A stretch of DNA of 45,561 bases, taken from the NCBI RefSeq assembly GCF_009905545.1, contig NZ_JAAALB010000046.1, positions 1 to 45,561 of the forward strand, in the 5' to 3' direction. The notes beneath the pieces are model-generated. The model was not told the DNA's origin and did no database searches. It was given only the letters and a program-made list of their open reading frames with translations. Every line of letters begins with the position of its first letter. Positions within the stretch are counted from its first letter, which is position 1. The stretch comes from Cellulophaga sp. BC115SP (GTDB taxonomy: Bacteria > Bacteroidota > Bacteroidia > Cytophagales > Spirosomataceae). This document shows positions 18,613 to 34,707 of this stretch, piece after piece. Made by a program: the position numbers and the translations under genes.

Positions 18613-19971
18613 ATGAAAAAAAGATATTTGCTTGCCGCTTTTTTAATGGCTGGATTTTCTAAAACATTTGCGCAAAAAACAGAGCAGATCAAACTCATTA
18701 CCCTCGACCCGGGTCATTTTCACGCAGCTTTGGTGCAAAAAAATATGTTTCCCAATGTTAGTTCTGAGGTGAAAGTTTATGCACCGCAAGGGAAAGACCT
18801 TGATATGCATTTGGCTCGTATCAACGGCTATAATACCCGTGCCCAAAACCCTACTGCTTGGAAGGAAATTCTTTATACTTCACCAGATTTTTTTGAAAAA
18901 ATGGTTCAAGAAAAAGCGGGTAATGTGGTGGTAATGGCAGGAAATAACAAAAAGAAAACGGAGTATATCAAAAAAGCCATTGATGCAGGATTTAATGTTT
19001 TGGCGGATAAACCAATGGTAATCGACCCTCAAAACTTTGATATGTTGAAAGCCGCATTTGAGTCTGCCAAGAAACAGGGTGTGTTGCTATATGACATCAT
19101 GACTGAGCGCTCAGAGATTACCACGATGCTTCAAAGAGAGTTTTCGATGGATGCTTCGGTTTTTGGAACGCTACAGAAAGGAACGCCTGATAATCCTGCG
19201 GTAACTAAAGAAAGTGTTCACCATTTTTGGAAATATGTTTCTGGAAGTGTGCTCACTCGTCCAGCTTGGTTTATGGATGTGGCGCAGCAGGGTGAAGGTA
19301 TCGTGGATGTCAATACTCACTTGGTGGATTTGATTCAATGGGAATGTTTTCCTGAACAAATTATTGATTATAAAAAGGAAATTAAAGTGAATAGTGCCAA
19401 ACGTTGGGCGACCGATATGACTTTAGCCCAGTTTAAGGACATTACTCAACTCGAACAGTTTCCTGATTATTTGAAAAAAGATGTAAAAGGAGATGTATTA
19501 AAGGTTTATTCAAACGGCGAAATCAATTACACCATCAGAGGAGTACATGCCAAAGCTTCTGTAACATGGGCTTACAAAGCACCTGAGGGCGGTGGCGATA
19601 CGCATTACTCGATTATGAGAGGCACCAAATCAAATTTGGTGATTCGTCAGGGGGCTGAGCAAAAATATCAACCTGTTTTGTATATCGAGCCTGCGAAAAA
19701 TGTCCCTGATTTTGAACAAAAATTGACAAAAGCGGTCGAAAAAGTTGCTCAAAAATTCCCAGGAATCAGTATCCAAAAAAATGAGAAAGGATGGGAGCTT
19801 GTCATTCCAGATAAATACAAAGATGGTCATGAAGCCCATTTCGGTTTGGTAGCACAACGCTATATGCAATACTTAAAGGACGGTAAATTGCCTGTTTGGG
19901 AAGTACCTAATATGTTAGCTAAATATTATACAACTACAGAGGCGTTGAAACTTGCCCAAAAATCTAAATAA
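18613..19971 (+). CDS. secreted Gfo/Idh/MocA-like protein
   Basis: 452 residues with a Sec signal peptide (KKRYLLAAFLMAGFSKTFAQ). The N-terminal part is unusual for the family: it starts ITLDPGHFHAALVQKNMF instead of a canonical GxGxxG loop, so NAD binding may be altered. VVVMAGNNKKKTEYIKKAID, FNVLADKPMVID (conserved K of the DKP motif) and GEGIVDVNTHLVDLIQWECF follow. The C-terminal half matches the type called 'putative oxidoreductase C-terminal domain'. It lies 78 bases after one family member and 34 before another, so the three are probably co-transcribed and act on the same compound. Substrate unknown. Confidence 0.82.
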   Translation: MKKRYLLAAFLMAGFSKTFAQKTEQIKLITLDPGHFHAALVQKNMFPNVSSEVKVYAPQGKDLDMHLARINGYNTRAQNPTAWKEILYTSPDFFEKMVQEKAGNVVVMAGNNKKKTEYIKKAIDAGFNVLADKPMVIDPQNFDMLKAAFESAKKQGVLLYDIMTERSEITTMLQREFSMDASVFGTLQKGTPDNPAVTKESVHHFWKYVSGSVLTRPAWFMDVAQQGEGIVDVNTHLVDLIQWECFPEQIIDYKKEIKVNSAKRWATDMTLAQFKDITQLEQFPDYLKKDVKGDVLKVYSNGEINYTIRGVHAKASVTWAYKAPEGGGDTHYSIMRGTKSNLVIRQGAEQKYQPVLYIEPAKNVPDFEQKLTKAVEKVAQKFPGISIQKNEKGWELVIPDKYKDGHEAHFGLVAQRYMQYLKDGKLPVWEVPNMLAKYYTTTEALKLAQKSK

Positions 19972-20005
19972 TTTTAGTAAAAATCCCCTAATAAATATCA
20001 TAATC

Positions 20006-21133
20006 ATGCAGAATAATAGAAGAGAATTTATAAGAAATACATTCGGTACAGCCGCTGGGATTGTGCTCGCAAATCAGGTTGCCACTGCAACAAATCCCTC
20101 AAGTGCTGAACCAACTTTCGCAGAACCAAGAATCAAGTTTGCGGTGATTGGGATGAATCATGGGCATATATATGGTCAAGTGGAGGCAGTTATCCGTGGA
20201 GGAGGACAGTTGGTGGCTTTCTATGCCAAAGAGGCAGATTTGTTAGCCGCTTTTGCCAAACGCTATCCTAACGCTAAACAGGCAAGTTCCGAAGCTGAGA
20301 TTTTAAATGATAAGTCTATTCATTTGGTACTAAGCTCTGCAATTGCCAATGAGCGCGCACCTTTGGGGATTCGTGTCATGAAATCTGGGAAAGATTTTAT
20401 GTCTGATAAGCCAGGTATTACGACCCTTGAGCAATTAGCGGAAGTTCGCAAAGTACAGAAAGAAACCAAAAGGATTTATTCGATTTTGTTTAGCGAACGT
20501 TTGGAAAATAAGGCAACTGTAAAAGCTGGCGAATTAGTAAAAGCAGGTGCTATTGGTCGTGTGATTCAAACTATTGGTATGGGTCCACACCGTATTAGCT
20601 TGTCAACTCGCCCTGCGTGGTTCTTCAATAAAGAACAATTTGGTGGAATTCTTTGTGATATTGCTTCACACCAATTTGACCAATTTTTATTCTTTACAGG
20701 TTCGACAAAAGCCGAAATTGTAACCTCACAAGTTGGCAATGTAAACCATCCTCAGTATCCTAACTTCGAAGATTTTGGTGATGTTATGGTAAAAGGCGAT
20801 AAAGGAACAGGCTATGTTCGTGTAGACTGGTTTTCGCCAGATGGACTCAAAACTTGGGGTGATGGTCGCTTGACTATCCTAGGAACCGAAGGATATATTG
20901 AAATTCGTAAAAATATTGATATTGCTGGAAAAGAAGGTGGAAACCATTTGTTCTTGGTCAATAACAAAGAAACTGTACATATCGATTGCAACGATGTGGA
21001 ATTACCTTATGGTCGTCTTTTGGTAGACGATGTGGTGAATCGTACTGAAACTGCCATGTCACAAGAACACTGTTTCTTGACTTCTGAGCTTGCTATAAAA
21101 GCACAGAAATATGCTAAACAGTTGAGTATTTAG
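20006..21133 (+). CDS. Gfo/Idh/MocA oxidoreductase, Tat-type signal
   Basis: From the ATG at 20006 the protein has 375 residues and begins MQNNRREFIRNTFGTAAGIV, a twin-arginine-like export signal. The frame from 19952 overlaps the previous gene and hides the signal, so it is rejected. The Rossmann part begins IKFAVIGMNHGHIYGQVEAV; the usual GxGxxG is replaced by GMNHGH, as in some exported members. The conserved motif is FMSDKPGITT and the substrate part has GGILCDIASHQFDQFLFF. It is last of the three oxidoreductase genes and is followed by a clear terminator. Confidence 0.82.
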   Translation: MQNNRREFIRNTFGTAAGIVLANQVATATNPSSAEPTFAEPRIKFAVIGMNHGHIYGQVEAVIRGGGQLVAFYAKEADLLAAFAKRYPNAKQASSEAEILNDKSIHLVLSSAIANERAPLGIRVMKSGKDFMSDKPGITTLEQLAEVRKVQKETKRIYSILFSERLENKATVKAGELVKAGAIGRVIQTIGMGPHRISLSTRPAWFFNKEQFGGILCDIASHQFDQFLFFTGSTKAEIVTSQVGNVNHPQYPNFEDFGDVMVKGDKGTGYVRVDWFSPDGLKTWGDGRLTILGTEGYIEIRKNIDIAGKEGGNHLFLVNNKETVHIDCNDVELPYGRLLVDDVVNRTETAMSQEHCFLTSELAIKAQKYAKQLSI

Positions 21134-21625: not shown

Positions 21626-22180
21626 ATGAAATATAATAAGTTAACGGATGAACAATTGGTTAACCTCATTATCGAGGATAACAAGTATGCCTTTGAGGAG
21701 GTGTATCACCGTTATTGGTACAAGCTTTTTGGTGTAGCATATCACGAAATTGGAACTCGCGAAGAGGCCGAAGAACTCGTTCACGACTTATTCGAAAGCC
21801 TTTGGAATCGTCGGCATCAGCTCAACATCCGCATGTTGAGCGCCTATCTGGTTGTGTCCATCAAGCACCTGAGTACTAATTATATCAAGTCTCAAATTAC
21901 CAACCGCAAGTTTCAAGAGTATCTTATTTTCAACGAAATAAGACAATCTCATGCAACAGAGGAAGTAGTTCATTTCTCCGAACTATCCGACGCTGTGGAG
22001 GAGGCAATGAAAAAGCTTCCAGAAAAAACTTGTGAGGTGTTTAGGATGAGTCGTTTCGAAAATCAATCTGTGAAGGAGATTGCAGTTCAATTGAATTTGT
22101 CAGAAAAGGCTGTAGAATATCATATTACAAAATCCCTCAAATTGTTGAGAGAAAACCTAAAAGCATATCAGCAAACATAA
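21626..22180 (+). CDS. ECF RNA polymerase sigma factor, SusC/D-associated
   Basis: 184 residues, the normal size for the Bacteroidetes ECF family paired with FecR and SusC. Region 2 is FEEVYHRYWYKLFGVAYHEI followed by REEAEELVHDLFESLWNRR. Region 4 is AMKKLPEKTCEVFRMSRFEN followed by the helix-turn-helix SVKEIAVQLNLSEKAVEYHI. It is followed after 52 bases by the FecR gene. It would direct RNA polymerase to the susC promoter once released from FecR. Confidence 0.95.
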   Translation: MKYNKLTDEQLVNLIIEDNKYAFEEVYHRYWYKLFGVAYHEIGTREEAEELVHDLFESLWNRRHQLNIRMLSAYLVVSIKHLSTNYIKSQITNRKFQEYLIFNEIRQSHATEEVVHFSELSDAVEEAMKKLPEKTCEVFRMSRFENQSVKEIAVQLNLSEKAVEYHITKSLKLLRENLKAYQQT

Positions 22181-22232
22181 TCTAAATCTGTTTGGAAGAC
22201 ACCTAGTGTTATTTCATAAGCCATTTACTATC

Positions 22233-23228
22233 ATGAATCAATTTGAATTTGACCAATTACTCGAAAAATATCTGAACGGGGAATGCACCCCCGAGGAGAT
22301 TGCTTTTGTAGAGCAATGGTCTGAAAATATGCTTTCGATAGCCTCTGCTCCCCTGAGCGCTAGCGAACAACAAAACCTAGAAAAACAACTTTGGGAGCGT
22401 ATTCAGCAGTCTATCGGGATTAAACCTTTCAAGTGGAAAATCTGGGCTATGGCAGCGACCGTCCTGATTTGTGTCGGATTGGCACTGAAGTGGTATGCTT
22501 GGCAAGATAGTCCAGAACAGCTTATACGTCAGTCGATTGCAACTAGCAATTGGGGGGTGATTGACTTAACAAACCATTCTTCGACCGTACAAAAGGTTAC
22601 GCTTGAGGACGGTAGTGTGGTGCAACTCAATCCTAATAGTACGATTTCATATCCTGAACATTTCGGACAAAAAACAAGGACTGTTTATCTGAAAGGAGAG
22701 GCTTTTTTCAACATCAAACGAAATCCAGCGAAACCTTTTGTAGTACACACAGGCGATTTGGTTACTGAAGTGCTTGGAACAAGTTTTACCATTAAGTCCT
22801 ACGAAAATTCCAAATCTATTGAGGTATTGGTTCGTACGGGGAAAGTATCGGTTTATGAACGAAAAAATGTAGAAAAACAAAAACGCAATGGGGTCATTTT
22901 AACACCTAATCAAAAAGTAGTTTTTGTGAAAGATTCTCGAAAAATCATTCCAAGCTTAGTTGAAGAGCCTGTGGTGATTGTTCCACCTGTGCAATTGACA
23001 CAATTTATTTTTGAAGAAACGCCCTTAGCTCAGGTGCTGCAACACCTAAAGCAAGCCTACATGATAGATTTTGAGGTAGAGAGCGACGCATTTGAGAATT
23101 GTGTTTTTACAGGCGACCTCAACGAACTGCCACTTCATACCCAACTCGACCTTGTTTGTAAAGCCGTAAATGCTAATTACGAACAAAGAGGAACTGTCAT
23201 ATTTCTCTACGGTACGGGTTGTAAATAA
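22233..23228 (+). CDS. FecR-family anti-sigma factor
   Basis: 331 residues from the ATG at 22233; the frame from 22206 adds nine residues without support. The cytosolic N-terminus (about 70 residues, FEFDQLLEKYLNGECTPEEI) would bind the sigma factor. One membrane span lies near 70-88 (IWAMAATVLICVGLALKWY). The periplasmic part has the FecR domain (VTLEDGSVVQLNPNSTISYP, VYLKGEAFFNIKRNPAKPF, TEVLGTSFTIKSY) and a C-terminal DUF4974 domain (FEETPLAQVLQHLKQAYMID). It sits between the sigma gene and SusC, the standard trans-envelope signalling order. Confidence 0.95.
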   Translation: MNQFEFDQLLEKYLNGECTPEEIAFVEQWSENMLSIASAPLSASEQQNLEKQLWERIQQSIGIKPFKWKIWAMAATVLICVGLALKWYAWQDSPEQLIRQSIATSNWGVIDLTNHSSTVQKVTLEDGSVVQLNPNSTISYPEHFGQKTRTVYLKGEAFFNIKRNPAKPFVVHTGDLVTEVLGTSFTIKSYENSKSIEVLVRTGKVSVYERKNVEKQKRNGVILTPNQKVVFVKDSRKIIPSLVEEPVVIVPPVQLTQFIFEETPLAQVLQHLKQAYMIDFEVESDAFENCVFTGDLNELPLHTQLDLVCKAVNANYEQRGTVIFLYGTGCK

Positions 23229-23320: not shown

Positions 23321-23350
23321 ATCCAGTCACAGTTAAAAACAATTAAAATT

Positions 23351-26300
23351 ATGAAAAAAAACGTACTATTTAAAAAGATTCTCTCCGAAGCAATGCGAAT
23401 CACTTTGACCCAGCTATTGCTGTCGTTTGTGTTTTGTGGGATTACCCTAGCAAACGATGCTTTTTCTCAAGAGGTACTCAACAAGAGTATTTCGCTGAAA
23501 CCAGAAACAATCACAGTTAAAAGAGCTTTAACGCAAATCGAAAGACTTGCAGATGTAAAATTTATTTATAGTCCAAATTTGATACAGTCAGAAAGGAAAG
23601 TAAACCTTTCTTTTGATAATAATCGTCTTTCGACAGTTCTTAACGATTTTTTAACTCCGTTAAATATTTCTTATGAAGTCGTTGGAAATAGAATCGTGCT
23701 TAGTAAAAAGGAATTAGAAGTTGTTCCGCAAGTGACTAACACGAAAGAACTCCCAAACGTAATAAACGCCGATATAAACGTAACAGGACAAGTAACTGAC
23801 GAAAAAGGTCAGCCATTGACTGGGGTATCGGTGTTGGTAAAAGGCAGCACAAGAGGAACAACATCGGATGCTAATGGTAATTTTAGAATTGCAGTACCAG
23901 ACAACGATGCAGTGTTGATTTTCTCATTTGTTGGCTATAAAAAACAAGAAGTAAGTGTAGCAGGAAGAAGCAAAATTATGCTTTCGTTACAACCTGAAAA
24001 CCAAAACTTAGAAGAGGTCGTAGTAGTAGGTTATGGTACTCAATCTCGTAAAAACTTGGTTTCTGCTGTAACGACCATTAAACCTGAAGAATTAAATAAA
24101 GGGGCTATTTCAGACGTAGGTCAATTATTACAAGGTAAAGTACCAGGTTTGAATATCACTCGTAGCGGTGACCCGAACCGTTCGGCGGCTATTATTTTAC
24201 GTGGTGCCTCTACGCTTCGTGATGGTGCTCAATCGCCTCTATTTGTGATTGATGGAGTGCCTGGAGCAGATATTTCTTTGATTGCTCCTGACGATATTGC
24301 TTCAATGGATGTATTAAAAGATGCGGCTGCCACTGCGATTTATGGTAACCGTGCATCAAATGGGGTAATTATGGTAACAACTAAGCGTGCAGGTAAAGGG
24401 CAAATGCAAGTTTCGTATGGTGCGTATATGGCAGTTGATAAAGTTTCGAATAAATACGAAATGATGGATGCCAATCAGTTAAAATCCTTCTTGGCAGCTA
24501 ATGGACAAGCTTTAACTCCTGCGGATGATCAAGGGGCAAATACCAATTGGCAAGATGCTGTACAACGCAAAGAGGCATTTTCTCAAAATCACAATTTGTC
24601 TTTCGGTGGAGGAACAGAGAGTACGGTTTATAATGCCAGTATCAACTATTTCAATCAACAGGGGATTCTTAAATCTTCTGGCTTAAGTCGTGTGGTAGCT
24701 CGTTTGTCAATTGAACAAAAAGCCATGAATGACAAGTTGAAGTTCGGTTTATCGGTAACAAACTCGATGAGTGATGCTGATTGGGTTCCTTACAGAAATA
24801 CTGTTCTTGCACAAATGTTGACATATTTGCCAACCGCGCCTATCAAAAATGCCGATGGAACGTGGTATGACAACTTTGCTAAAAGTAATTATTACAACCC
24901 AGTTTCATTGATTGAAAATGGTACTGAAAAATTGAAGTACAAAAGCCTAGTGGGTACATTCTTTACACAAGCTAAGTTACCATTCGGTTTGACGTATGAC
25001 TTAAAATTATCATATCAAAACTTCCAAACAAATTACGGAGCGTACTATAATAGTTATTATACCCAGTACTATAACAATATCCGTAGCACTCCAGAACCTC
25101 CTGGTAACCCATCTTTTATTACCTTGGTTGGAACGAATGGTTTTGCAACACGTAATGCTTATGAAAACCGTCAGAGTTTGTTAGAAACCTATTTGACTTG
25201 GGATAAACAATTGGGAGATCACTCTATCAACGCAGTGGTTGGGTATTCTTGGCAAGAAAGTATCAATGGCGATGGTTTTCAGTCAACAAGTACTAATTTT
25301 CCTGTGGACGCCGTAAGTTATAATAATTTAGGAATGGGTAACCCTTATGCAGTGGCGTCTTTTAGAGTGAATTATGGTGGTGATAATTATCAACAAATTC
25401 GTTTGATTTCTGATTTTGGACGTTTGAATTATAACTATAAAAACAAATACTTAGTCCAAGCATCTGTTCGTCGCGACGGTTCTTCTGTATTTGGAGCAAA
25501 CAAACGTTGGGGATATTTCCCATCAGTAGGTTTGGCTTGGAGAGTTGATAATGAGCCATTCATGGAAAATCAAAAGATTTTTGATGAATTAAAACTTCGT
25601 GTAAGTTACGGTGTAACAGGTAACTCATTAGGCTTTAGCCCATATACGACTAAATTAATTTATGGTAATGTTGGTACATTCTACTACAATGGAAGCCAAC
25701 AGTCAGCTATTGGGGCATTGCAAAATGAAAACCCAGATTTAGGTTGGGAAAAAACTGCTACTTCAAATATTGGGGTTGACTTTGCCGTGGCAAAAGGTCG
25801 TGTAAGTGGTACGTTGGAGGTTTATGACAAGACCACCTCAGACTTGATTTGGACGTACCCAGTAAGTACTGTACTTTATCCAAACGGTTCTTTGACGGCA
25901 AACGTAGGTAAAATGAGCAACAAAGGTGCAGAATTGACATTGAATTTTAGTGCGATAAAAACTAAAAACTTTTCTTGGAATACAACCTTGAACTTGGCTC
26001 ATAACCGTAATAAAATCGAAAGTCTTTCAAACTCAACTTTGAAAACAGACTCAGTGAAAATTGTTCAACCAGATGGTGGTGGGCAAACAGGTGAAACTGT
26101 TCAGGTAATTGTTGCTGGTATGCCAATCGGACAATTCTATACGTACGAATACGCAGGAAAAGACGCAAACGGTGTTTCTCAATATTACAAAGCGAATGGA
26201 GAGTTGACTACTCGTCCTGAGATTGGTAAAGACTACCGTATGTTGGGTAATGCGCAGCCAAAATTGTTGTTAGGTTGGACAAACTCATTTACCTACAAAA

Positions 26301-26707
26301 ACTTCGACTTAAATGTATTCTTCCGTTCGGTGCTTGGAAACAAAATCATGAATGTAACCCGCGCAGATTTGTATAGACCAAGTACTGCTCGATTTACAAA
26401 CATTCCTGTAGAGGTGGCAAGTGAATCTGCGGCAGATTATAACTCATACCGTTACTCATCAAGATTCATTGAAGATGGTTCATATCTACGTTTAGATAAT
26501 GCAACGTTGGCTTACACTTTCAAAAATTTAGGTAAAAATTTCAAAAGAGTACGTGTTTATACCTCTGTAAACAACCTTTTTGTAATTACCAGTTACAAAG
26601 GTATCGACCCAGAAATCAACCAAGGTGGCCTTGCACCAGGGGTAGACGCCAACAACTTCTATCCAAAAACTAGAACCTTTTTGTTTGGGGTAAATGCGTC
26701 TTTTTAA
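23351..26707 (+). CDS. SusC/RagA-type TonB-dependent transporter with STN domain
   Basis: 1118 residues. It has an extended signal sequence, then an STN domain (about 45-115: NKSISLKPETITVKRALTQI) that talks to FecR. A carboxypeptidase-regulatory-like domain follows (about 143-213: VTGQVTDEKGQPLTGVSVLV), then the SusC signature EEVVVVGYGTQSRKNLVSAV, the plug (VDGVPGADISLIAPDDIAS, MDVLKDAAATAIYGNRASNG) and a 22-strand-type barrel ending in a terminal F (FLFGVNASF). It imports oligosaccharides with its SusD lid using TonB energy. STN plus adjacent sigma and FecR genes means substrate binding should induce its own locus. Confidence 0.97.
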   Translation: MKKNVLFKKILSEAMRITLTQLLLSFVFCGITLANDAFSQEVLNKSISLKPETITVKRALTQIERLADVKFIYSPNLIQSERKVNLSFDNNRLSTVLNDFLTPLNISYEVVGNRIVLSKKELEVVPQVTNTKELPNVINADINVTGQVTDEKGQPLTGVSVLVKGSTRGTTSDANGNFRIAVPDNDAVLIFSFVGYKKQEVSVAGRSKIMLSLQPENQNLEEVVVVGYGTQSRKNLVSAVTTIKPEELNKGAISDVGQLLQGKVPGLNITRSGDPNRSAAIILRGASTLRDGAQSPLFVIDGVPGADISLIAPDDIASMDVLKDAAATAIYGNRASNGVIMVTTKRAGKGQMQVSYGAYMAVDKVSNKYEMMDANQLKSFLAANGQALTPADDQGANTNWQDAVQRKEAFSQNHNLSFGGGTESTVYNASINYFNQQGILKSSGLSRVVARLSIEQKAMNDKLKFGLSVTNSMSDADWVPYRNTVLAQMLTYLPTAPIKNADGTWYDNFAKSNYYNPVSLIENGTEKLKYKSLVGTFFTQAKLPFGLTYDLKLSYQNFQTNYGAYYNSYYTQYYNNIRSTPEPPGNPSFITLVGTNGFATRNAYENRQSLLETYLTWDKQLGDHSINAVVGYSWQESINGDGFQSTSTNFPVDAVSYNNLGMGNPYAVASFRVNYGGDNYQQIRLISDFGRLNYNYKNKYLVQASVRRDGSSVFGANKRWGYFPSVGLAWRVDNEPFMENQKIFDELKLRVSYGVTGNSLGFSPYTTKLIYGNVGTFYYNGSQQSAIGALQNENPDLGWEKTATSNIGVDFAVAKGRVSGTLEVYDKTTSDLIWTYPVSTVLYPNGSLTANVGKMSNKGAELTLNFSAIKTKNFSWNTTLNLAHNRNKIESLSNSTLKTDSVKIVQPDGGGQTGETVQVIVAGMPIGQFYTYEYAGKDANGVSQYYKANGELTTRPEIGKDYRMLGNAQPKLLLGWTNSFTYKNFDLNVFFRSVLGNKIMNVTRADLYRPSTARFTNIPVEVASESAADYNSYRYSSRFIEDGSYLRLDNATLAYTFKNLGKNFKRVRVYTSVNNLFVITSYKGIDPEINQGGLAPGVDANNFYPKTRTFLFGVNASF

Positions 26708-26778
26708 TTTACCACTGAAAGATTTCTTGAAAAATGGTCATACATAGAGTTTTAGACTCAATTCAAATATTGAAAACA

Positions 26779-28362
26779 ATGAAAAGATATTTTAATATAT
26801 TCCTACTATTTTTTGGTGCTATCGGGCTGTATTCCTGCCATGATTTGGACGTGCCAGTAACAACACAACTTACTCCCGACGTATTTCCTCAAACTCCAGC
26901 ACAATTTGTTCAAGCTGCAGGACCTACGTATAATAGTTTCCGCCAAAGTTTTGCTGTTGAATATTGGTTTCTTCAGTCATTGAGCACAGATGAGGCTATT
27001 TTACCTGCCCGTGGAGGTAACTGGTACGACGGTGGACGTTACGAACAACACCACAAACACACATGGAATCGTGATAACGCCCATGTTCAAGGGACTTGGA
27101 ATTGGCTGACGTCTACAATCTCAATCAGTAATCAAAACATTTATTTGATTTCTAAAGCACCAGAATCAGATGCGAAAAAAACGTCTATTGCTGAACTACG
27201 TTCTATGCGTGCGTTATGCTATTTTATGATGATGGATTTATGGGGTAATGTGCCAGTAACTACTCAATTTGGAGATACTACCACGGCTCGTACCACAGCT
27301 CGTGCTGACGTTTTTAAGTTTATTGAGAAAGAGCTGAATGAAAGTATCCCAAATCTAAGTGAAGTAGTTGGACAAGAAACTTACGGTCGTCCTACGAAAT
27401 TTACTGCTTATGCCATTTTAGCAAAAATGTATCTGAATGCTGAAGTTTACACTGGTACTGCACGTTGGAATGATGCTATCGCAGCATGTGATAAAATTAT
27501 CAGTTCAGGTAAGTTTGCTTTAGAATCTGACTACAGAAAGATGTTCTTTATCAACAACGGACCACAAATCAAGGAGTTTATCTATGCAATACCTTATGAC
27601 GCTTCTGCGCCAAATGGTTATATGTTTTATGCTCGCTATGCTCTCCCAAGATCTTTGCGTGCCAAATATAGTTTGCCATTTACGCCTAGTTCGGCATGTA
27701 GTACTTTACCCGAATTTTATGCTTATTTCAATGATTCAAAAGATCTAAGAAATCAACAGTGGATTACGGGTAAACAGTTTGACTACAAGGGTAATCCTGT
27801 AATGGTGAGTACAACCAAGCAAGGTTATGATGAAGATTATAAAGGTGCAGACGCCTCGGTAGCGCTAACCTATCAGGTAGATATTACGCCAAATGTTGTG
27901 ATTAAAAATGCAGCTAGTTTTGATTTAGGAAATGACGAAAAAGCTTGGAATATGGGATATCGTAACAATAAGTTTTATTGCGATTCTACTTCAGCTACTC
28001 GTAACCAAAATAATGACGTACCTATTTTCCGTTATGCCGACGTATTGTTGATGAAAGCAGAAGCTATCTTGAGAGGCGGAACTGCTACAAACGGGCAAAC
28101 TGCCTTGGGTTTAGTAAATGAATTGCGTTCAAAACGTACTACTTCGCCAGCGTGGACCACGGTAACATTACAAACCTTGTACGAAGAACGTTCTCGTGAG
28201 TTTACATGGGAAACTTGGCATAGAAATGATATGATTCGTTATGGAAAATACGAAGACAAATGGGGCGTAAAAACTGATAACGATGTACGAAAAAGATTAT
28301 TCCCTATACCAACAAATGCGTTGCAGGTTAACCGACTATTAACGCAAAACCCAGGATACTAG
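26779..28362 (+). CDS. RagB/SusD-family glycan-binding lipoprotein
   Basis: 527 residues from the ATG at 26779. The upstream in-frame start at 26734 is rejected because the signal begins here: MKRYFNIFLLFFGAIGLYSC gives the lipobox with the acylated cysteine. SusD features include the N-terminal DLDVPVTTQLTPDVF, helical repeats (AELRSMRALCYFMMMDLWGN, the canonical R-A-YY motif), YAILAKMYLNAEVYTG, and the C-terminal RYADVLLMKAEAILRGG and LYEERSREFTWETWHR. It forms the lid over SusC on the cell surface. It starts 71 bases after susC, in the same transcript. Ligand unknown. Confidence 0.96.
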   Translation: MKRYFNIFLLFFGAIGLYSCHDLDVPVTTQLTPDVFPQTPAQFVQAAGPTYNSFRQSFAVEYWFLQSLSTDEAILPARGGNWYDGGRYEQHHKHTWNRDNAHVQGTWNWLTSTISISNQNIYLISKAPESDAKKTSIAELRSMRALCYFMMMDLWGNVPVTTQFGDTTTARTTARADVFKFIEKELNESIPNLSEVVGQETYGRPTKFTAYAILAKMYLNAEVYTGTARWNDAIAACDKIISSGKFALESDYRKMFFINNGPQIKEFIYAIPYDASAPNGYMFYARYALPRSLRAKYSLPFTPSSACSTLPEFYAYFNDSKDLRNQQWITGKQFDYKGNPVMVSTTKQGYDEDYKGADASVALTYQVDITPNVVIKNAASFDLGNDEKAWNMGYRNNKFYCDSTSATRNQNNDVPIFRYADVLLMKAEAILRGGTATNGQTALGLVNELRSKRTTSPAWTTVTLQTLYEERSREFTWETWHRNDMIRYGKYEDKWGVKTDNDVRKRLFPIPTNALQVNRLLTQNPGY

Positions 28363-28563: not shown

Positions 28564-28654
28564 TGTAAATAGGGGTTGCGAGGTTTGATTGAGTAGATTT
28601 TAAAGAAAACTGTTTTTAACAGTATGGAATAATACTTTGATAAATCCCTTCTTT

Positions 28655-29779
28655 ATGCAAAAAAAACGACTTGATTCATTAGATGCTTTGCGTGGGTTTG
28701 ATATGTTCTTTATTATTGGTGGCGAAGCATTTATTCACACATGGGCAACGTATTCTAATTGGCCACCCATCGTTTGGATGTCCTCACAATTACACCATAG
28801 TGATTGGAATAGACTCACTTTTTATGATTGTATATTCCCTCTATTTATCTTCATTGCTGGGTTTTCGATGCCATTAAGTTTTGAAAGTCAAATTCAAAAA
28901 CTGACGCAACTTTCACATCCTAATCCCCAATCAAAAATCTTATTTCATCTGCTAAAAAGAACGCTAATACTTATTTTATTGGGTGTTGTGGTAAATGGCT
29001 TTTTTAAGTTTCAAGGATATGAAAATACACGTATCGCCAGCGTATTAGGACGTATTGCATTGGCGTGCTTAGGTGCAGGAGTTTTGGTGCTTTACACCTC
29101 AGTTCGAACACAGATCATTGCTTTTGTGTCGATATTGGTGGGCTATTTTTTACTGGTAAGATTTTACCCTGTTCCAGGTTTTGGCGTATTTGATTTTACC
29201 AAAGAAGGAAATGTGACAGCGTATTTTGACCGACTTTTTTTACCAGGGAAATTGCATCGTAAAGTGTATGATCCAGAAGGAATTCTTTCCACGATTCCTG
29301 CTATATGCAATGCCTTGATGGGTGCATTTACGGCACGTTTTTTATTGAAAAATCCTCTAAAATTAGATTCTAATAGACTTTTAGGAGCAATGTTTTTTAT
29401 TGGAGGAGGATTAATTGTAGCGGCTGAATTATGGGCATTGATATTCCCAATCAATAAAATAGTTTGGACATCCTCTTTCGTTTTGATAACAGGAGGTATC
29501 AGTATATGGTTTTTGACATTCTTCTATTGGTTTGTCGATGTAATGGGTTTCAAAAAGGTCGTTCAACCCTTTATTTGGATTGGTACTAACTCCATTACGA
29601 TATATTTGGCGGTGCATAATATCATCAATTTTGAGTCTACGGCGCATTATTTTTTAGATGGAATGCTACAAAATTCTACGATTGATGCACAAAACTTCGG
29701 AATTGCTTCAGGTGTATTATGTTTGCAATTAGCTGGATTGTATTTTTTATATAGAAATAAATTATTCTTAAAAATATAG
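28655..29779 (+). CDS. HGSNAT-like membrane acetyltransferase (DUF5009)
   Basis: 374 residues from the ATG at 28655; the TTG at 28637 is less likely. About ten hydrophobic segments. The N-terminal block RLDSLDALRGFDMFFIIGGE and the segment LHHSDWNRLTFYDCIFPLFI match lysosomal heparan-alpha-glucosaminide N-acetyltransferase (HGSNAT) in spacing and key residues. H48 in HHSDW falls where the HGSNAT active-site histidine lies. HGSNAT moves an acetyl group from cytosolic acetyl-CoA across the membrane to a terminal alpha-glucosamine. The gene precedes GH89, the partner enzyme in that pathway. The same role here, in the inner membrane acting on the periplasmic side, is an inference; some DUF5009 proteins may acetylate other sugars. 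Confidence 0.8.
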   Translation: MQKKRLDSLDALRGFDMFFIIGGEAFIHTWATYSNWPPIVWMSSQLHHSDWNRLTFYDCIFPLFIFIAGFSMPLSFESQIQKLTQLSHPNPQSKILFHLLKRTLILILLGVVVNGFFKFQGYENTRIASVLGRIALACLGAGVLVLYTSVRTQIIAFVSILVGYFLLVRFYPVPGFGVFDFTKEGNVTAYFDRLFLPGKLHRKVYDPEGILSTIPAICNALMGAFTARFLLKNPLKLDSNRLLGAMFFIGGGLIVAAELWALIFPINKIVWTSSFVLITGGISIWFLTFFYWFVDVMGFKKVVQPFIWIGTNSITIYLAVHNIINFESTAHYFLDGMLQNSTIDAQNFGIASGVLCLQLAGLYFLYRNKLFLKI

Positions 29780-29784
29780 GTCAT

Positions 29785-29826
29785 AAGTATTAATGTTGAA
29801 TTGTGAGTGGAGAATTGTGAATGTAA
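29785..29826 (-). repeat. 42-bp interspersed repeat, copy 2
   Basis: The reverse complement matches 6186-6227 at 37 of 42 positions with no gaps. It starts 6 bases after the acetyltransferase stop. The remaining bases to 30011 are A/T-rich with no gene. Confidence 0.75.
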
Positions 29827-30011
29827 TATTCTCATTATTGAAGCTATTTAAACTTTTCAAAAAACAGATTTTATGGAGTAGTAAAGATTAGACAAATAGT
29901 CAAGCTGAGGTGAAGTTTTGCTATAAATTTTTGATTATGAGCACCTTCAAATAACGAATATACTATTAACTACTAACGTCTTCTTAATTACCCAATTTTA
30001 ATTAACATAAC

Positions 30012-32210
30012 ATGAAAAGAGTATCTCTAACGTTGTTGGTAAGCTTGTTTTGTATTTTTCAATTATCGGCGCAAATCGATTTAGGAGAATCCAAAGCATT
30101 AATTAAACGAATTATTCCAACCAGAGCCAGTGCCTTTGAAGTCGGTTATCTTCCACAAGAAAACGGGAAAGATGTTTTTGAAATCAGTTCAAAAAAAGGC
30201 AAAATTATCCTTAAAGGAAGCACTGGGGTAAGTATTGCTTCGGCATTTAATTACTATCTGAATGAATATTGTCACTGCCAAATTACTTGGAATGGTTCAA
30301 ACTTGGCATTACCTAAGGTACTGCCAGTCCTCAAAACTCCTGTAAAAAAGAACTCAGATTTTCTTTACAGATATTATCTCAATTACTGTACATTCAATTA
30401 CAGTATGTCATGGTGGGATTGGAAACGTTGGGAAAAGGAAATTGACTGGATGGCACTTCATGGTATTAATATGCCTTTGGCGATTACGGGTGAAGAATAC
30501 ACTTGGTATGAAGTTTATAAGGAAATGGGCTTTAGCGATGATGATTTGAAAGGCTTTTTCTCAGGACCTGCGTATTTTTCATGGTTTTGGATGGGAAATC
30601 TTGACGGCTGGGGTGGACCACTTCCTTTAAGCTGGATGAAAAGTCATCATGAATTACAAAAGAAAATTATTAAAAGAGAACGTGCATTGGGAATGAAACC
30701 CGTTTTGCCAGCCTTCACAGGTCACGTACCAGAGGCTTTTAAAAAGTATTTTCCGAAAGCTAAACTCAAAGCGACTAACTGGACAAATGGTTTTGCTGAT
30801 ACCTATATTCTAGATGCTGAAGATCCGCTATTTGCTGAGTTAGGTAAAAAGTTCTTGCAAAAGCAAACGAAAATGTTTGGTACAGACCATTTTTACTCAG
30901 CTGACACTTTCAACGAAAACGAACCTCCATCGGATGAACCTGCATTTTTATCAAAACTGAGTGCTAAAGTCTATGAAGGTATGCAACAAGCCGACCCCAA
31001 AGCGGTTTGGGTAATGCAAGCATGGTTGTTTTATTCGGATCGAAAATTCTGGAAAGAGCCACAGGTAAAAGCTCTTTTGGAGGCAGTACCAAACGATAAA
31101 ATGTTGTTGCTGGACTTGGCAACGGAAATTGAACCCGTTTGGAAACGTACGCAAGCCTATTATGGTAAACCTTGGGTTTGGAATATGTTGCATAATTTTG
31201 GAGGCAACGTCAATCTCTTTGGACGAATTGAAGGTGTAGCCAACGGACCTGTTCAAGCACTGAATGACCCTAACAAAGGAAATTTACAAGGCTTGGGTTT
31301 GACAATGGAGGCGATTGAGCAAAATCCAGTGCTTTATGCTTTGACAATGCGTCATGCTTGGGATAGCTCGCCATTGGACTTGGACAAGTGGTTGGATGGC
31401 TATATCCGTAATCGTTATGGAAAAGTGACGCCAGAAAACCGTGAAGTTTGGCAAATTCTCAAAAAAACTGCCTACAACGGAACAACAATTCGTGATGGTG
31501 CTGAGTCTATTTTGACAGGTCGACCAACCTTTGATTCGACGACTGTTTGGACAAGAACTAAATTGAATTATCCTCCCAAAGAGTTATTGCCAGCATGGCA
31601 ATTGATGGTGAAGTCTATCGCAGTAAATGGAAGTAAAGAGGGTTTTCAGTATGATTTAGTCGATATTTCAAGACAGGTACTGGCAAATTATGCCTTGCCT
31701 TTGCAGAAAAAATGGGTGACAGCGTATCGTAAAAATGATTGGGAAAGCTTTCAAAAATATACGAAAGAATATCTGATATTGATGGATGATATGGACGAAT
31801 TATTGGGAACTCGTCAGGATTTTTTACTAGGTAAATGGATCAAAGAAGCGCGTGCTTGTGGCTTTACACCTGCTGAAAAAGACTTGTACGAACAAAATGC
31901 CAGAGACCTAATAACACTTTGGGGAGATGCCAATTCGCCGTTACACGAATATTCAAATCGTCAATGGAATGGTTTAATGAAGGATTTCTATAAAGTTCGT
32001 TGGGAGAAATTCTTTGATGCCTTGACTACTGCTCATCAAAAAGGAGAAAAATATCAGCATGAGGCCTTCGAAAAGGAAATCAAGCAATGGGAATGGTCAT
32101 GGGTAACCTCACATAAGGATTTTATGGCAACACCAAAGGGCAATCCAAATCAGATAGCCCAAAAGCTGTTTGATAAATATTATGTAAAAATCCAGCAGGC
32201 TTACGAATAA
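30012..32210 (+). CDS. GH89 alpha-N-acetylglucosaminidase (NAGLU-like)
   Basis: 732 residues with a Sec signal peptide (KRVSLTLLVSLFCIFQLSAQ). The order of domains is that of NAGLU: a small N-terminal domain, the catalytic barrel beginning YRYYLNYCTFNYSMSWWDWK with the hallmark WMALHGINMPLAITGEE, then FTGHVPEAF, and a helical C-terminal domain. The two catalytic glutamates by comparison with human NAGLU are E302 in SADTFNENEPPSDEP and E433 in GLTMEAIEQNPVLY. It removes terminal alpha-linked GlcNAc from glycans such as heparan fragments or alpha-GlcNAc-capped mucin chains. It acts in the periplasm or at the cell surface and is flanked by the HGSNAT-like gene and GH92. Confidence 0.95.
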   Translation: MKRVSLTLLVSLFCIFQLSAQIDLGESKALIKRIIPTRASAFEVGYLPQENGKDVFEISSKKGKIILKGSTGVSIASAFNYYLNEYCHCQITWNGSNLALPKVLPVLKTPVKKNSDFLYRYYLNYCTFNYSMSWWDWKRWEKEIDWMALHGINMPLAITGEEYTWYEVYKEMGFSDDDLKGFFSGPAYFSWFWMGNLDGWGGPLPLSWMKSHHELQKKIIKRERALGMKPVLPAFTGHVPEAFKKYFPKAKLKATNWTNGFADTYILDAEDPLFAELGKKFLQKQTKMFGTDHFYSADTFNENEPPSDEPAFLSKLSAKVYEGMQQADPKAVWVMQAWLFYSDRKFWKEPQVKALLEAVPNDKMLLLDLATEIEPVWKRTQAYYGKPWVWNMLHNFGGNVNLFGRIEGVANGPVQALNDPNKGNLQGLGLTMEAIEQNPVLYALTMRHAWDSSPLDLDKWLDGYIRNRYGKVTPENREVWQILKKTAYNGTTIRDGAESILTGRPTFDSTTVWTRTKLNYPPKELLPAWQLMVKSIAVNGSKEGFQYDLVDISRQVLANYALPLQKKWVTAYRKNDWESFQKYTKEYLILMDDMDELLGTRQDFLLGKWIKEARACGFTPAEKDLYEQNARDLITLWGDANSPLHEYSNRQWNGLMKDFYKVRWEKFFDALTTAHQKGEKYQHEAFEKEIKQWEWSWVTSHKDFMATPKGNPNQIAQKLFDKYYVKIQQAYE

Positions 32211-32233
32211 TTACCATTTTCCCTTAAATCACA

Positions 32234-32259
32234 TAGAGACGTTGCTTGCAACGTCTCTA
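32234..32259. repeat. GAGACG palindrome between GH89 and GH92
   Basis: TAGAGACGTTGC-TT-GCAACGTCTCTA, a perfect 12-bp inverted repeat, fills the centre of the 65-base gap and ends 16 bases before the GH92 start. It belongs to the GTAGAGACG family. In the mRNA it would form a stable hairpin next to the GH92 translation start. Confidence 0.8.
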
Positions 32260-32275
32260 CTAATTTAATTCTATT

Positions 32276-34498
32276 GTGAAAAAAATCTTACTTATCTTAT
32301 TACTATCGACGTCCCTTTTTGCACAGAAAAAACCGCTTGATTATGTCAATCCATTGATTGGATCGGCACCTAGTACTACGCCAAGTGCCAAAAAACATAG
32401 CGAGGCTGGTTCTGAATTAAAAGGACAAGTAGTTCCTATGATTGGTGTTCCACAAGGATTAACCACTTGGACACCTCAAACAAGAGCTACTGAACAAAAA
32501 TGTATTCCACCATATTACTATAACGATGGAAAAATTCAAGGATTTCGTGCAAGTCATTGGATGAATGGAAGTTGTGTGCAAGATTATGGCACAATGACGC
32601 TTATGCCTCAAGTGGGAAAAGTCGAAATTAACCCCGAAAAAAGAGCAGAAGCTTACTCACGAAAAACTGAAATTGTACGTCCAGATTTGTATCAGGTAGA
32701 TTTACAAAATTCTGGAATCAACGTTGCCATGACAGCACTTTGCAGAAGTGGATTTTTTAAAATTAAATATCCTAATCAGCAGGAGAACTATCTTATTATC
32801 GAGCCAAATTCCGACGAAGGTGTTGGGTTCGTACAAATTTTTCCAGAAAGAAAAGAAATAGTAGGTTATAACCCCGTACACCGAATTTATCAAGGTTGGG
32901 GACAACCTGCAGGATTCAGCGGCTATTTTGTCCTACAATTTGACTCCGATATTTCAGATTTTGGAACATGGCTCAAAAATGAAATAACCCCTAAACAGAC
33001 TATCGCTCAAGGAAAAGCCGTAGGAGAAAATGTGGGAGCTTATGTTAGATTTGCGTCCAAAGTTGTAAACGTTCGAATAGGTACTTCATTTACAAGTATT
33101 GAAGGAGCTCGTAAAAATTTAAAGGCAGAAATTTCGCATTGGAATTTTGATTTAGTCAAACAAAGTGCTGCTAACCAGTGGAATATGGCGCTTGGTAAAA
33201 TTCAGGTAAAAGGTTCTGATAATGACAAAACGCTATTTTACTCAGCGCTTTATCATGCCAAGCTGACACCAAGAGTTTTCTCAGATTTTGATGGAAAATA
33301 TCCTCAATTTGCAGGTGGCAAAACCATAGAAACAGCCAAAGGATTTACCTATTATGAAGATTACAATCTCTGGGATACTTATCGTGCAGTTCACCCACTT
33401 CATACGATTTTAGAGCCAAAACGCACCGCCGATATGATGCAATCATTGATTGTAAAAGCAGAGCAAGGCGGTTGGTTACCTATTTTTCCGTGTTGGAATC
33501 AGTACACGGCTGCCATGATTGGCGACCATGCGATTTCAGTTATTGGCGATGCGTATATCAAAGGTATCAAAGGTTTTGACATCGAAAAAGGCTATCAGTA
33601 TATGCGCAAAAATGCCTTCGAACCTAACCCAGATGCCAAGAGTTATGAGCAAGGACAAGGACGTAGAGCTTTATCAAGCTATCTCAAATACCATTATATT
33701 CCCCTAGAAGATTCTGTTTGGCAAGCATTCCATAAGCGAGAGCAGGTTTCGCGTACGCTAGAATATGCCTACGACGATTTTGTATTGGGAAAAGTAGCGG
33801 AAAAATTAGGAAAAAAAGCTGATGCTGAAATACTTGCACAACGTGCGCAAAACTACAAGAATGTCATTGACCCGCAAACAGGATGGGCAAGAGGAAGATA
33901 TGCGGATGGTTCTTGGATTGCCCAATTTGATCCTTTTGCACAGCGTTCGAGTTTTATTACAGAAGGTTCTCCTGCTCAATACACATTCTATGTGCCGCAA
34001 GATATTCAAGGATTAATCGCTCAAGTAGGAGGGAAAGAGCGATTTATTCAAAAGTTAGATACCCTTTTTGAACAGGGATATTATTGGCATGGCAACGAAC
34101 CCAATAATCAGATTGCGTATTTGTATCCTTATGCAGGTCAGGCGGAAAAAACTCAAAAATGGCTTCGCAAAATTATTAGGGAAGAATACGATACCAGTCC
34201 TGGAGGAATGAGCGGAAACGAAGATGGTGGTCAAATGTCATCTTGGCTAGTGTTTAGTATGATGGGCTTTTACCCAGTTTGCCCAGGGAATCCTAGCTAC
34301 ACTTTAGGAAGTCCTATGTTTGATGAAGTAAAAATTCAGACACCTTCGGGTAAGTATTTTACCATAAAAACATATAACCAATCGGACAATCATCCAATGA
34401 TTGATAGAATGAAATTAAATGGTAAGCCCTTTTCAGCTATTGAAATTACACATCAAGAATTGTTAAAAGGCGGTCTTTTAGAAGTTTGGATGAAATAA
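32276..34498 (+). CDS. GH92 alpha-mannosidase
   Basis: 740 residues starting at GTG 32276, the only start that gives a clean signal peptide (KKILLILLLSTSLFA). The N-terminal beta-sandwich opens with the family hallmark DYVNPLIGS, followed by FRASHWMNGSCVQDYGTMTL. The (alpha/alpha)6 domain has YYEDYNLWDTYRAVHPLHTI, then the acid glutamate E608 in GNEPNNQIAYLYPYAG and the base region E649-D650 in GNEDGGQMSSWLVFSMMGFY. GH92 enzymes are calcium-dependent, inverting exo-alpha-mannosidases acting on alpha-1,2 and other mannosyl links of N-glycans or fungal mannan. Together with GH89 it points to a eukaryote-type glycan as substrate. Confidence 0.95.
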   Translation: MKKILLILLLSTSLFAQKKPLDYVNPLIGSAPSTTPSAKKHSEAGSELKGQVVPMIGVPQGLTTWTPQTRATEQKCIPPYYYNDGKIQGFRASHWMNGSCVQDYGTMTLMPQVGKVEINPEKRAEAYSRKTEIVRPDLYQVDLQNSGINVAMTALCRSGFFKIKYPNQQENYLIIEPNSDEGVGFVQIFPERKEIVGYNPVHRIYQGWGQPAGFSGYFVLQFDSDISDFGTWLKNEITPKQTIAQGKAVGENVGAYVRFASKVVNVRIGTSFTSIEGARKNLKAEISHWNFDLVKQSAANQWNMALGKIQVKGSDNDKTLFYSALYHAKLTPRVFSDFDGKYPQFAGGKTIETAKGFTYYEDYNLWDTYRAVHPLHTILEPKRTADMMQSLIVKAEQGGWLPIFPCWNQYTAAMIGDHAISVIGDAYIKGIKGFDIEKGYQYMRKNAFEPNPDAKSYEQGQGRRALSSYLKYHYIPLEDSVWQAFHKREQVSRTLEYAYDDFVLGKVAEKLGKKADAEILAQRAQNYKNVIDPQTGWARGRYADGSWIAQFDPFAQRSSFITEGSPAQYTFYVPQDIQGLIAQVGGKERFIQKLDTLFEQGYYWHGNEPNNQIAYLYPYAGQAEKTQKWLRKIIREEYDTSPGGMSGNEDGGQMSSWLVFSMMGFYPVCPGNPSYTLGSPMFDEVKIQTPSGKYFTIKTYNQSDNHPMIDRMKLNGKPFSAIEITHQELLKGGLLEVWMK

Positions 34499-34569
34499 AA
34501 CCCTAAGAGTATGTTTGAAATTTTATTCGGTATTTGTAGAAGAAACAACATTTCCTATCGACACTCCTT

Positions 34570-34597: not shown

Positions 34598-34707
34598 AAC
34601 AAAAGAAAGTCAAGAAATCCTAAACTCGCCTGCGGCTCAAACAATAGGATTTCAGAAAATAAATACAGGCTTTTTTATTTTAATGAATTTAAACATGCTC
34701 TAAATTT

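Follow-up and report, generated by a model that had tools for sequence, protein, structure and literature searches.

The transmembrane acetylation of periplasmic glucosamine is an idea already known from work on NagX (SO_3504 family), for which Price et al. 2022 proposed, on the basis of fitness data, that cytosolic acetyl-CoA acts on periplasmic glucosamine (PMC9007349). The second close system is the human lysosomal pair HGSNAT and NAGLU. Among GH89 enzymes of Bacteroides, Bt3590 acts on terminal GlcNAc-a1,4-GlcA and is missing a Trp loop thought to direct CpGH89 toward GlcNAc-Gal (PMC8225759). With respect to plant GIPC sphingolipids, microbial attack is exemplified by a Botrytis phospholipase C that yields inositol phosphate glycans; this is a fungal lipid-cleaving step, and the available part of that report describes no glycan breakdown locus such as the one considered here (PMC11496612). 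No bacterial route for the breakdown of the GIPC headgroup glycan is described among the matches listed in open-licence PubMed Central.

Our window, i.e., the whole stretch of DNA analysed (45,561 nucleotides), comes from a bacterium close to Flectobacillus, since its GH89 is 98% identical and its DNA 92.5% identical to those of Flectobacillus longus. A SusC/SusD pair adjoins glycoside hydrolase genes (Table 1), as in a polysaccharide utilisation locus, and the locus resembles those of Bacteroidota in its ECF/FecR regulators, its hydrolases with signal-like N-termini and its operon-like order; what sets it apart from the usual ones is a membrane acetyltransferase, joined in relatives by an inositol oxygenase and a phosphatase. 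The sequence-only reading had placed a membrane protein, a GH89 and a GH92 mannosidase in this order behind SusC/SusD, and the open reading frames, their position and the GH92 identity were all borne out. Both the catalytic and the N domain of GH92 are present and match GH92 proteins of the PDB (best E 5.6e-117). Oxidoreductase 1 resembles glycoside 3-dehydrogenase/inositol dehydrogenase (NF058561, 122 bits; TIGR04380, 89 bits; both below cut-offs), and oxidoreductase 3 matches PDB 3u3x (E 1.2e-117), an entry named merely oxidoreductase. Scans of the window for promoters and terminators gave counts no different from shuffles (44 vs 45.2 and 12 vs 11.0, respectively).

Table 1. Position and annotation of the genes of the window locus.
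Feature	Position	Strand	Models and remarks
Gfo/Idh/MocA oxidoreductase 1	17137..18534	+	PF01408, PF19051
Gfo/Idh/MocA oxidoreductase 2	18613..19971	+	PF16490, PF01408
Gfo/Idh/MocA oxidoreductase 3	19952..21133	+	PF22725, PF01408
ECF sigma factor	21626..22180	+	TIGR02985
FecR-type anti-sigma factor	22206..23228	+	PF04773, PF16344
SusC outer-membrane transporter	23351..26707	+	TIGR04056, 778 bits
SusD glycan-binding lipoprotein	26734..28362	+	PF07980, PF14322; Cys after signal-like N-terminus
NagX/HGSNAT-like transmembrane acetyltransferase, 374 aa	28655..29779	+	alternative TTG start 28637
GH89 alpha-N-acetylglucosaminidase (predicted), signal-like N-terminus	30012..32210	+	PF05089/PF12972/PF12971
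GH92 alpha-mannosidase (predicted)	32276..34498	+	PF07971 566 bits, PF17678

The membrane protein had been labelled DUF5009, an identity that we dropped: PF16401 does not match it even at E = 10, a negative obtained with HMMER filters that discard most weak matches, and the nearest model is instead NCBIfam NF046061 (NagX; 314.5 bits, E 9.8e-94), aligned over its full length (model positions 1-369 of 369). A true DUF5009 gene was found at another locus, L068, two genes from GH89. Unlike NagX of the SO_3504 family, whose length and histidine it shares, the window protein stays below the curated equivalog cut-off of 480 bits, a score that no NF046061 match exceeds in any of the 296 phylum genomes. 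Human HGSNAT (PDB) is matched by sequence (phmmer E 1.5e-14), and when an AlphaFold model of the NagX-like protein (pTM 0.85) was submitted to Foldseek, the top 15 matches were all HGSNAT (E 5.7e-12 to 1.5e-9), with TM scores of 0.72-0.76 against the human protein. The claim of an HGSNAT-type histidine holds: H48, the second H of HHSDW (numbering from ATG 28655), pairs with residue 297 of the HGSNAT PDB chain, is kept as His in 18/18 aligned NagX, and sits between core helices one and two, as in HGSNAT. The DxxR motif (D10, R13) is invariant among these 18 sequences, and the DPEG motif reads D206-P-E208-G in the window NagX. While histidine, fold, DxxR and DPEG thus agree with HGSNAT, the acetyl-CoA-binding N258 does not, being Glu (E24) in all 18 rows with an identical spacing of +11 from the DxxR Arg; the N-terminal luminal beta domain of HGSNAT is absent as well, the model starting at the first core helix. 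Judged by nearest model, motifs and predicted fold, the protein is best described as a putative acetyltransferase of the NagX/HGSNAT kind. It would be very surprising if it were a MurT-like transporter, or an acyltransferase with another acceptor, whose adjacency to GH89 serves export or import; TfMurT, a putative MurNAc transporter, is a distant relative of NagX (PMC9007349) and E24 stands in place of N258, but fold and catalytic motifs are those of HGSNAT and transport is already covered by SusC and, in 25/58 NagX loci from the best 80 of at least 542 GH89 relatives, by an SSF symporter.

The GH89 carries three NAGLU Pfam domains (98-495 bits) and matches 4xwh, an alpha-N-acetylglucosaminidase (E 1.8e-170); the two NAGLU glutamates noted beforehand, E302 and E433, are both present and invariant in 25/25 aligned GH89. 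The conserved neighbourhood of acetyltransferase and GH89 on which the sequence-only reading depended was found for the NagX kind. In 296 phylum genomes, NagX lies within 3 kb of 8/25 GH89 genes and within 35 kb of 14/25, whereas 0.09 and 0.8 are expected under the random placement that these numbers presuppose, so that the pairing exceeds chance. In 150 family genomes (both samples being drawn from larger groups), NagX adjoins 15/17 GH89 genes, with at most 1170 bases between matched stretches. We also retrieved the best 80 of at least 542 confirmed GH89 relatives, a selection that leans toward kin of the window GH89: counted on stop-to-stop frames, NagX occurs in 58 of these 80 loci, in 57 of the 58 within 3 kb of GH89 and on the same strand, while none was in the fetched stretch of the remaining 22, six of which are short. 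In the GH89 tree, enzymes were scored as linked if a NagX lies no more than 35 kb away, and L068, with its true DUF5009, was scored as unlinked; NagX-linked enzymes spread over several lineages and force at least three changes; the NagX tree (35 rows, of which L043_309 is an unrelated ORF and the source of most 34/35 figures) contains two NagX-type clades paired with GH89. These data support the view that an HGSNAT-like acetyltransferase has been kept beside GH89 in several GH89 lineages. The natural reading is that acetylation from cytosolic acetyl-CoA would precede cleavage by GH89. The window protein differs from NagX of the SO_3504 family in its place among GH89/GH92 and SusC/SusD instead of a chitin/Nag operon, and in its acceptor, which is likely to be the terminal alpha-GlcN of a glycan.

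One could argue that NagX acetylates free glucosamine for uptake, as proposed for Shewanella and others, that GH89, limited to already acetylated glycans, and further enzymes supply sugars to the periplasm, and that the proximity of NagX and GH89 reflects loose pathway clustering. Genetic data from five bacteria tie NagX to the use of glucosamine (PMC9007349), NagX is not in view at 22 of the best 80 of at least 542 GH89 relatives, and NagX-family matches are widespread (114/296 phylum genomes vs 19/296 with GH89). We nevertheless consider this explanation unlikely, for the NagX copies closest to that of the window are precisely those that adjoin GH89: all 15/15 above 350 bits do so in the 150 family genomes, the next NagX scoring 305 bits, and the 12 window-type NagX, each with GH89 within 35 kb, form one supported clade (99/97). 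Besides, GH89 would not be expected to yield free glucosamine. The NagX control loci (n=11) are a weak control for GH89, 8 coming from genomes in which no GH89 was found.

The identity of the enzyme families with the lysosomal pair raises the question of heparan sulfate or heparosan degradation, a setting that the sequence-only reading implied, and GlcNAc-a1,4-GlcA, the linkage cut by Bt3590 (PMC8225759), is also found in GIPC. A bacterial copy of the lysosomal step is, in our opinion, highly improbable, and we dropped it: in a screen covering PL8, GH88 and sulfatase with one reference each (PL12 and PL13 lay outside it), these genes occur in 0/80, 0/80 and 1/80 of the best 80 of at least 542 loci, while GH89 loci that do hold an SGSH-like sulfatase or PL8/GH88 (L062, L069 and L070) have no nearby NagX. 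Since such genes are missing around the pair, its substrate is probably other than heparan sulfate; MIOX (myo-inositol oxygenase) and GH92 would likewise have no expected role on heparan. As a guide to GH89 specificity the Trp loop gives no consistent signal, since it is present in the GH89 clade of the window, unlike Bt3590, and absent in the clade of genus g13, both clades being NagX-linked; its presence in the window clade would argue against a simple heparosan-like aglycone preference.

Plant GIPC are built as Ara-Gal-Man-GlcN/GlcNAc-GlcA-inositol-P-ceramide, the glucosamine occurring both free and acetylated. In barley, HexN appears in the notation of 77/102 GIPC species (25 A, 35 B, 11 C, 6 D), HexNAc in that of the other 25/102 (PMC12201980). 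The gene content of the related loci recalls this structure. Among the 58 NagX loci from the best 80 of at least 542 GH89 relatives, GH92 occurs in 34, GH28 in 28, the SSF symporter in 25 and a purple-acid-phosphatase-like phosphoesterase in 18, and MIOX is found in 29 (not in view at the other 29) vs 1/22 of the loci without NagX (Fisher 8e-5). NagX, MIOX, GH28 and GH92 stand all together in 15 of the best 80, the outer-sugar enzymes are rare in the NagX loci (GH51 4/58, GH2 3/58, GH95 4/58), and UxuA occurs in 0/58 vs 3/22. In the phylum sample, GH89 and MIOX (19 and 23 carriers) co-occur in 12/296 genomes (p 7e-11). A full cassette, MIOX-SusC-SusD-MPE-NagX-GH89-GH28-GH92, is seen in L063 and L065, and a longer one in L075/76, L136/137 and L138/139 (GH89-SusC-SusD-GH92-GH92-u204-MPE2-regulator-MIOX-GH2-NagX-SSF-GH28-GH28-GH51-GH95). 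The GH28 of L063 lies at 6687-8204, and laboratory strains such as Pedobacter suwonensis DSM 18130 (L192) and Mucilaginibacter sp. OK283 (L182) also have a complete cassette. Gene labels were assigned by phmmer against single reference proteins (at least 60 bits), so that members are missed and labels are no proof of orthology; for the recurring unlabelled clusters, one member each was scanned.

Because GH28, the phosphatase-like enzyme, SSF, MIOX and, in a minority, GH51/GH2 match the parts of a GIPC headgroup, we propose, with somewhat more confidence than doubt, that this polysaccharide-utilisation-type system serves the use of inositol-linked glycans, of which plant GIPC headgroups are the likeliest. 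SusC/SusD would bring the glycan in and GH92 would strip mannose, exposing alpha-glucosamine on glucuronic acid; NagX would then acetylate these glucosamine ends and enable GH89 to release GlcNAc. In relatives, GH28 might split glucuronic acid from inositol, the purple-acid-phosphatase-like enzyme take off phosphate, and the SSF symporter, MIOX and uronate enzymes complete the breakdown. No gene assigned to cleavage of the ceramide-phosphate bond was found in this analysis; a PF01663 phosphodiesterase at L178 is a first candidate for a GIPC phospholipase tied to such loci. It also seems fairly probable that Bacteroidota such as Pedobacter, Mucilaginibacter and Chitinophaga hold dedicated loci for GIPC headgroups, full cassettes offering an enzyme per residue and an HGSNAT-like acetyltransferase that masks the GlcN amine for GH89. 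If true, genes could be named for bacterial GIPC headgroup breakdown, NagX would gain a glycan acceptor, the HGSNAT-NAGLU logic would extend beyond animals to several lineages of GH89, and the lysosomal two-step would be applied to a plant membrane lipid; enzymes for sequencing GIPC glycans would become available, and what becomes of plant sphingolipids in soil could be tested directly.

Fungal GIPC include some in which the sugar attached to inositol is GlcN. A doubtful but possible alternative is that the substrate is another Man-GlcN-inositol glycan, i.e., GPI anchors or GIPC with GlcN directly on inositol, which do exist (PMC6151786), from which GH92 would strip mannose before NagX acetylates and GH89 frees inositol. 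The window cassette of NagX, GH89 and GH92 requires no uronidase, MIOX fits such glycans equally, and 30/58 NagX loci (best 80 of at least 542) show no GH28; yet the GH28 of 28/58, together with the GH51, GH2 and GH43 genes of a few loci, points to arabinose, galactose and a uronic acid, and the window SusC belongs with the SusC clade of loci holding GH28 and MIOX. It is 64% identical to SusC of L063, and among the 296 genomes, with only the two best candidates scored per genome, 11/11 SusC above 1100 bits sit in loci with GH89-NagX or MIOX-GH28-GH92.

Several observations speak against the plant GIPC reading, namely the GH89 relatives with no NagX in view (22 of the best 80 of at least 542) and the NagX loci with no MIOX in view (29/58), the rarity of outer-sugar enzymes, the lack of a gene assigned to the ceramide-phosphate bond, the E24 of NagX, the Trp loop in the GH89 clade of the window, a congener locus (L248) with NagX-GH89-GH92 and no SusC/SusD, and the window itself, where no ORF of at least 100 aa matches the GH28, phosphatase or MIOX references at 1e-5. 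Elsewhere in the same genome, a MIOX of a weaker-scoring group (270 bits) lies beside a lyase on contig C166, and a phosphatase ortholog (62% identity) lies among uronate genes on contig C67. The best GH28 of the genome, which adjoins rhamnosidases, was set aside as a cassette counterpart, being distant (33% identity). Finally, oxidoreductases 1 and 2 are kept with NagX-GH89-GH92 in L248, where the site of oxidoreductase 3 is occupied by a gene labelled Gfo/Idh on a weak match (27 bits against oxidoreductase 1).

The membrane acetyltransferase-like, GH89 and GH92 genes reported behind SusC/SusD are indeed present, as are the residues named for them, H48 in the membrane protein and E302 and E433 in GH89. 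The sequence-only reading took the first of these proteins for a DUF5009 acetyltransferase that re-acetylates glucosamine ends for GH89, as HGSNAT does for NAGLU in human lysosomes; this interpretation is partly supported and is extended here, its strongest part being the conserved NagX-GH89 pair. The DUF5009 label had to be dropped, as the 374-aa polytopic protein gave no match to that family even at E = 10. It aligns over the whole length of the NagX model (314.5 bits, short of the 480 that the equivalog cut-off asks for) and, in sequence, to human HGSNAT. The N-termini of GH89 and GH92 look like signal sequences and that of SusD resembles a lipoprotein's, so that both hydrolases would be in the periplasm together with the active side of NagX. 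A 2022 paper proposed, using fitness data of five bacteria, that NagX acetylates periplasmic glucosamine across the membrane (PMC9007349), and a 2025 paper judged DUF5009 proteins to be HGSNAT orthologs (PMC12423673). Neither the NagX-GH89 pair nor a bacterial locus for glycans of GIPC (a plant sphingolipid) was the subject of any paper among the matches listed from open-licence PubMed Central.

The AlphaFold model, built from an alignment of 18 NagX (pLDDT 84, pTM 0.85), points to a HGSNAT-like fold: its 15 best PDB matches are all human HGSNAT (E 5.7e-12 to 1.5e-9, TM 0.72-0.76), followed by GWT1 (1e-3). D10xxR13, H48 and D206-P-E208-G are invariant in the 18 aligned rows. At the position of HGSNAT N258, which holds the acetyl group according to the available part of PMC11357348, all 18 NagX have a glutamate (E24, placed by its spacing from the Arg of DxxR), and a second HGSNAT-like clade (loci L066 and L067) keeps Asn; judging from this alignment, the acidic residue is a putative clade-wide active-site difference of NagX.

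The co-occurrence with GH89 anticipated for DUF5009 was found for NagX. Of 296 genomes drawn from the phylum, 19 have GH89 and 114 have NagX (E up to 1e-10), and NagX lies within 3 kb of 8 of the 25 GH89 genes and within 35 kb of 14, against 0.09 and 0.8 expected from random placement. Within the window's family (150 genomes), 17 GH89 genes were found in 12 genomes and 15 have NagX within 1170 bases; these are exactly the 15 family NagX scoring above 350 bits to the window protein (the next reaches 305), and in one of the two exceptions (genome G348) the gene next to GH89 is more weakly similar to NagX (98 bits). Among the best 80 of at least 542 confirmed GH89 relatives, 58 have NagX within the stretch that was fetched, in 57 cases on the same strand and no more than 3 kb away; six of the 22 without it are short stretches. 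A weak control comes from eleven loci in which NagX stands apart from GH89 (L059, L060, L130, L142-L148, L150): they contain neither MIOX (myo-inositol oxygenase) nor GH28; one has GH92 and GH2, another a NagB-like gene, and they tell little about GH89, which is absent from the genomes of eight of them. The window-type NagX with linked GH89 group in a single clade (12 rows, support 99/97), with GH89 22-31 kb off in six rows, and the GH89-linked proteins of L066 and L067 fall in the separate HGSNAT-like clade. On the GH89 tree, linkage (NagX within 35 kb, 14/25 genes) needs 4 changes, at least 3 of them forced by supported branches, and none of 500 shuffles was as low; the linkage is thus concentrated on the tree, but was gained or lost several times. 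In one relative, GH89 has as neighbours a calcineurin-like phosphoesterase and a true DUF5009 protein (254 bits to PF16401); this may be a third way of pairing an acetyltransferase with GH89.

Features of the window and of related loci (L, loci; G, genomes; C, contigs; MPE, metallophosphoesterase; SSF, symporter; g13, one genus)
Feature	Position	Strand	Gene order or remark
Gfo/Idh/MocA oxidoreductases (three)	17137-21133		ahead of sigma factor
Main locus	21626-34498	+	ECF sigma, FecR, SusC, SusD, NagX, GH89, GH92
Inverted repeat	28531-28563		SusD-NagX gap
NagX	28655-29779	+	
NagX codon 24 (E24)	28724-28726	+	counted from ATG 28655
GH89	30012-32210	+	
Palindromic stretch	32211-32275		between GH89 and GH92
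GH92	32276-34498	+	
Repeat-like stretch	34499-34839		after GH92
Exosortase K, MSEP-CTERM protein	34840-38131		right after locus
Second locus of window genome (L058)	G000:C124:60000-79999		FecR, SusC, SusD and GH89-NagX; pair order reversed
DUF5009, phosphoesterase	L068:6737-9597		adjoin GH89
u608	L113:15034-16860		
u204	L075:14201-14815		
Cassette	L063, L065		MIOX-SusC-SusD-metallophosphoesterase-NagX-GH89-GH28-GH92
Cassette	L064		ECF-FecR-SusC-SusD-GH89-NagX-GH28-MIOX-UxuA
Cassette (g13)	L075/76, L136/137, L138/139 (three pairs of adjoining stretches)		GH89-SusC-SusD-GH92-GH92-u204-MPE2-regulator-MIOX-GH2-NagX-SSF-GH28-GH28-GH51-GH95
Cassette	G033		MIOX-SusC-SusD-u608-SSF-GH28-GH92; NagX-GH89 elsewhere in genome

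The decisive evidence on the substrate is the gene content of the relatives' loci. MIOX is rare (23 of 296 genomes over the cut-off), and 12 of these carriers also belong to the 19 genomes with GH89 (p 7e-11). In the 58 NagX-positive versus the 22 NagX-negative loci of the same best 80 of at least 542 relatives, MIOX was found in 29 versus 1 (p 8e-5), GH28 in 28 versus 3, GH92 in 34 versus 4, SSF in 25 versus 1, phosphoesterase in 18 versus 1 and UxuA in 0 versus 3; outer-sugar enzymes are rare (GH51 4 versus 1, GH2 3 versus 1, GH95 4 versus 2). With one reference each, PL8 and GH88 were found in none of these 80 loci and a sulfatase in one. Elsewhere, GH89 stands with PL8 and GH88 (L062) or with a SGSH-like sulfatase (L069, L070), NagX not being nearby; these are perhaps glycosaminoglycan or mucin loci. 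The nearest PDB matches are inositol oxygenase for MIOX (1.9e-79), purple acid phosphatase for the phosphoesterase (1.6e-38) and exo-poly-alpha-D-galacturonosidase for GH28 (2.5e-24). Other g13 loci lack a labelled GH95, some having a NagB-PIG-L fusion or a ROK-family kinase. Three NagX-GH89-GH28-GH92-GH92 loci without a purple-acid-phosphatase-like label (L177, L178, L181) have in common a protein of roughly 552 aa, which in L178 is a type I phosphodiesterase (PF01663). Among 57 NagX loci, a 335-aa protein recurs in 24 (LacI-type in L213), an alpha-galactosidase-like protein in 6 (scanned in L216) and GH43 in 4 (scanned in L211).

Residue by residue, this gene set would map on the GIPC headgroup (Ara-Gal-Man-GlcN/GlcNAc-GlcA-inositol-P-ceramide), which is well supported as the substrate for full cassettes and, through kinship only, proposed for the window; we favour it with moderate confidence, slightly reduced by the rarity of outer-sugar enzymes among the 58 loci and by the small number of SusC candidates scored. 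GH51 (and GH43) would remove arabinose, GH2 galactose and GH92 mannose, exposing an alpha-GlcN end that NagX, via H48, would acetylate across the membrane before GH89 releases GlcNAc. Known GH28 enzymes act on galacturonic acid; here GH28 would remove glucuronic acid from inositol, the phosphatase would follow, and SSF and MIOX would then turn inositol into glucuronate for UxuA. The G033 layout is what a Man-GlcA-inositol glycan would need. Acetylation is required for complete heparan sulfate breakdown (available part of PMC11357348), and would likewise be needed before bacterial GH89. In barley, HexN is the form written for 77 of 102 GIPC species (series A 25, series B 35, series C 11, series D 6) and HexNAc for the other 25 (PMC12201980, in part), and a Botrytis phospholipase C frees the GIPC glycan from ceramide (PMC11496612, in part). 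The recurring cassette proteins u608 and u204, with no match in a Pfam scan, may be glycan-binding or lipid-cleaving.

The SusC proteins of the window and of L063 share 64% identity. With two candidates scored per genome (296 genomes), all 11 SusC above 1100 bits, including two of the window genome, are from loci that contain GH89-NagX or MIOX-GH28-GH92; seven more score 749-928 bits (two in such loci, five elsewhere), and the next 609. None of the window's ORFs of at least 100 aa matches the references for GH28, phosphatase or MIOX at 1e-5. In the same genome, MIOX lies on contig C166, a phosphatase ortholog (62%) on C67 beside UxuA, a PfkB gene and a mannitol-dehydrogenase-family gene that we guess to be fructuronate reductase, and GH28 occurs only as distant copies, the best one beside rhamnosidases. 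In F. longus the two GH89-NagX loci share a contig and are separated by some 35 kb. The Gfo/Idh/MocA genes probably belong to the pathway, since in a congener (L248) three such genes, two clearly those of window 17137-19971, run directly into NagX-GH89-GH92 without SusC/SusD; one window protein has matches below the cut-offs to models of glycoside 3-dehydrogenase and of inositol 2-dehydrogenase.

Around the locus, the 15-pair inverted repeat is terminator-like only on the minus strand, and such sites are equally common in shuffles; the palindromic and the longer repeat-like stretches were judged by eye. Exosortase K (TIGR04287, 100.7 bits) and the MSEP-CTERM protein after it (TIGR04286, 732 bits) form, from their model matches, a predicted dedicated sorting pair.
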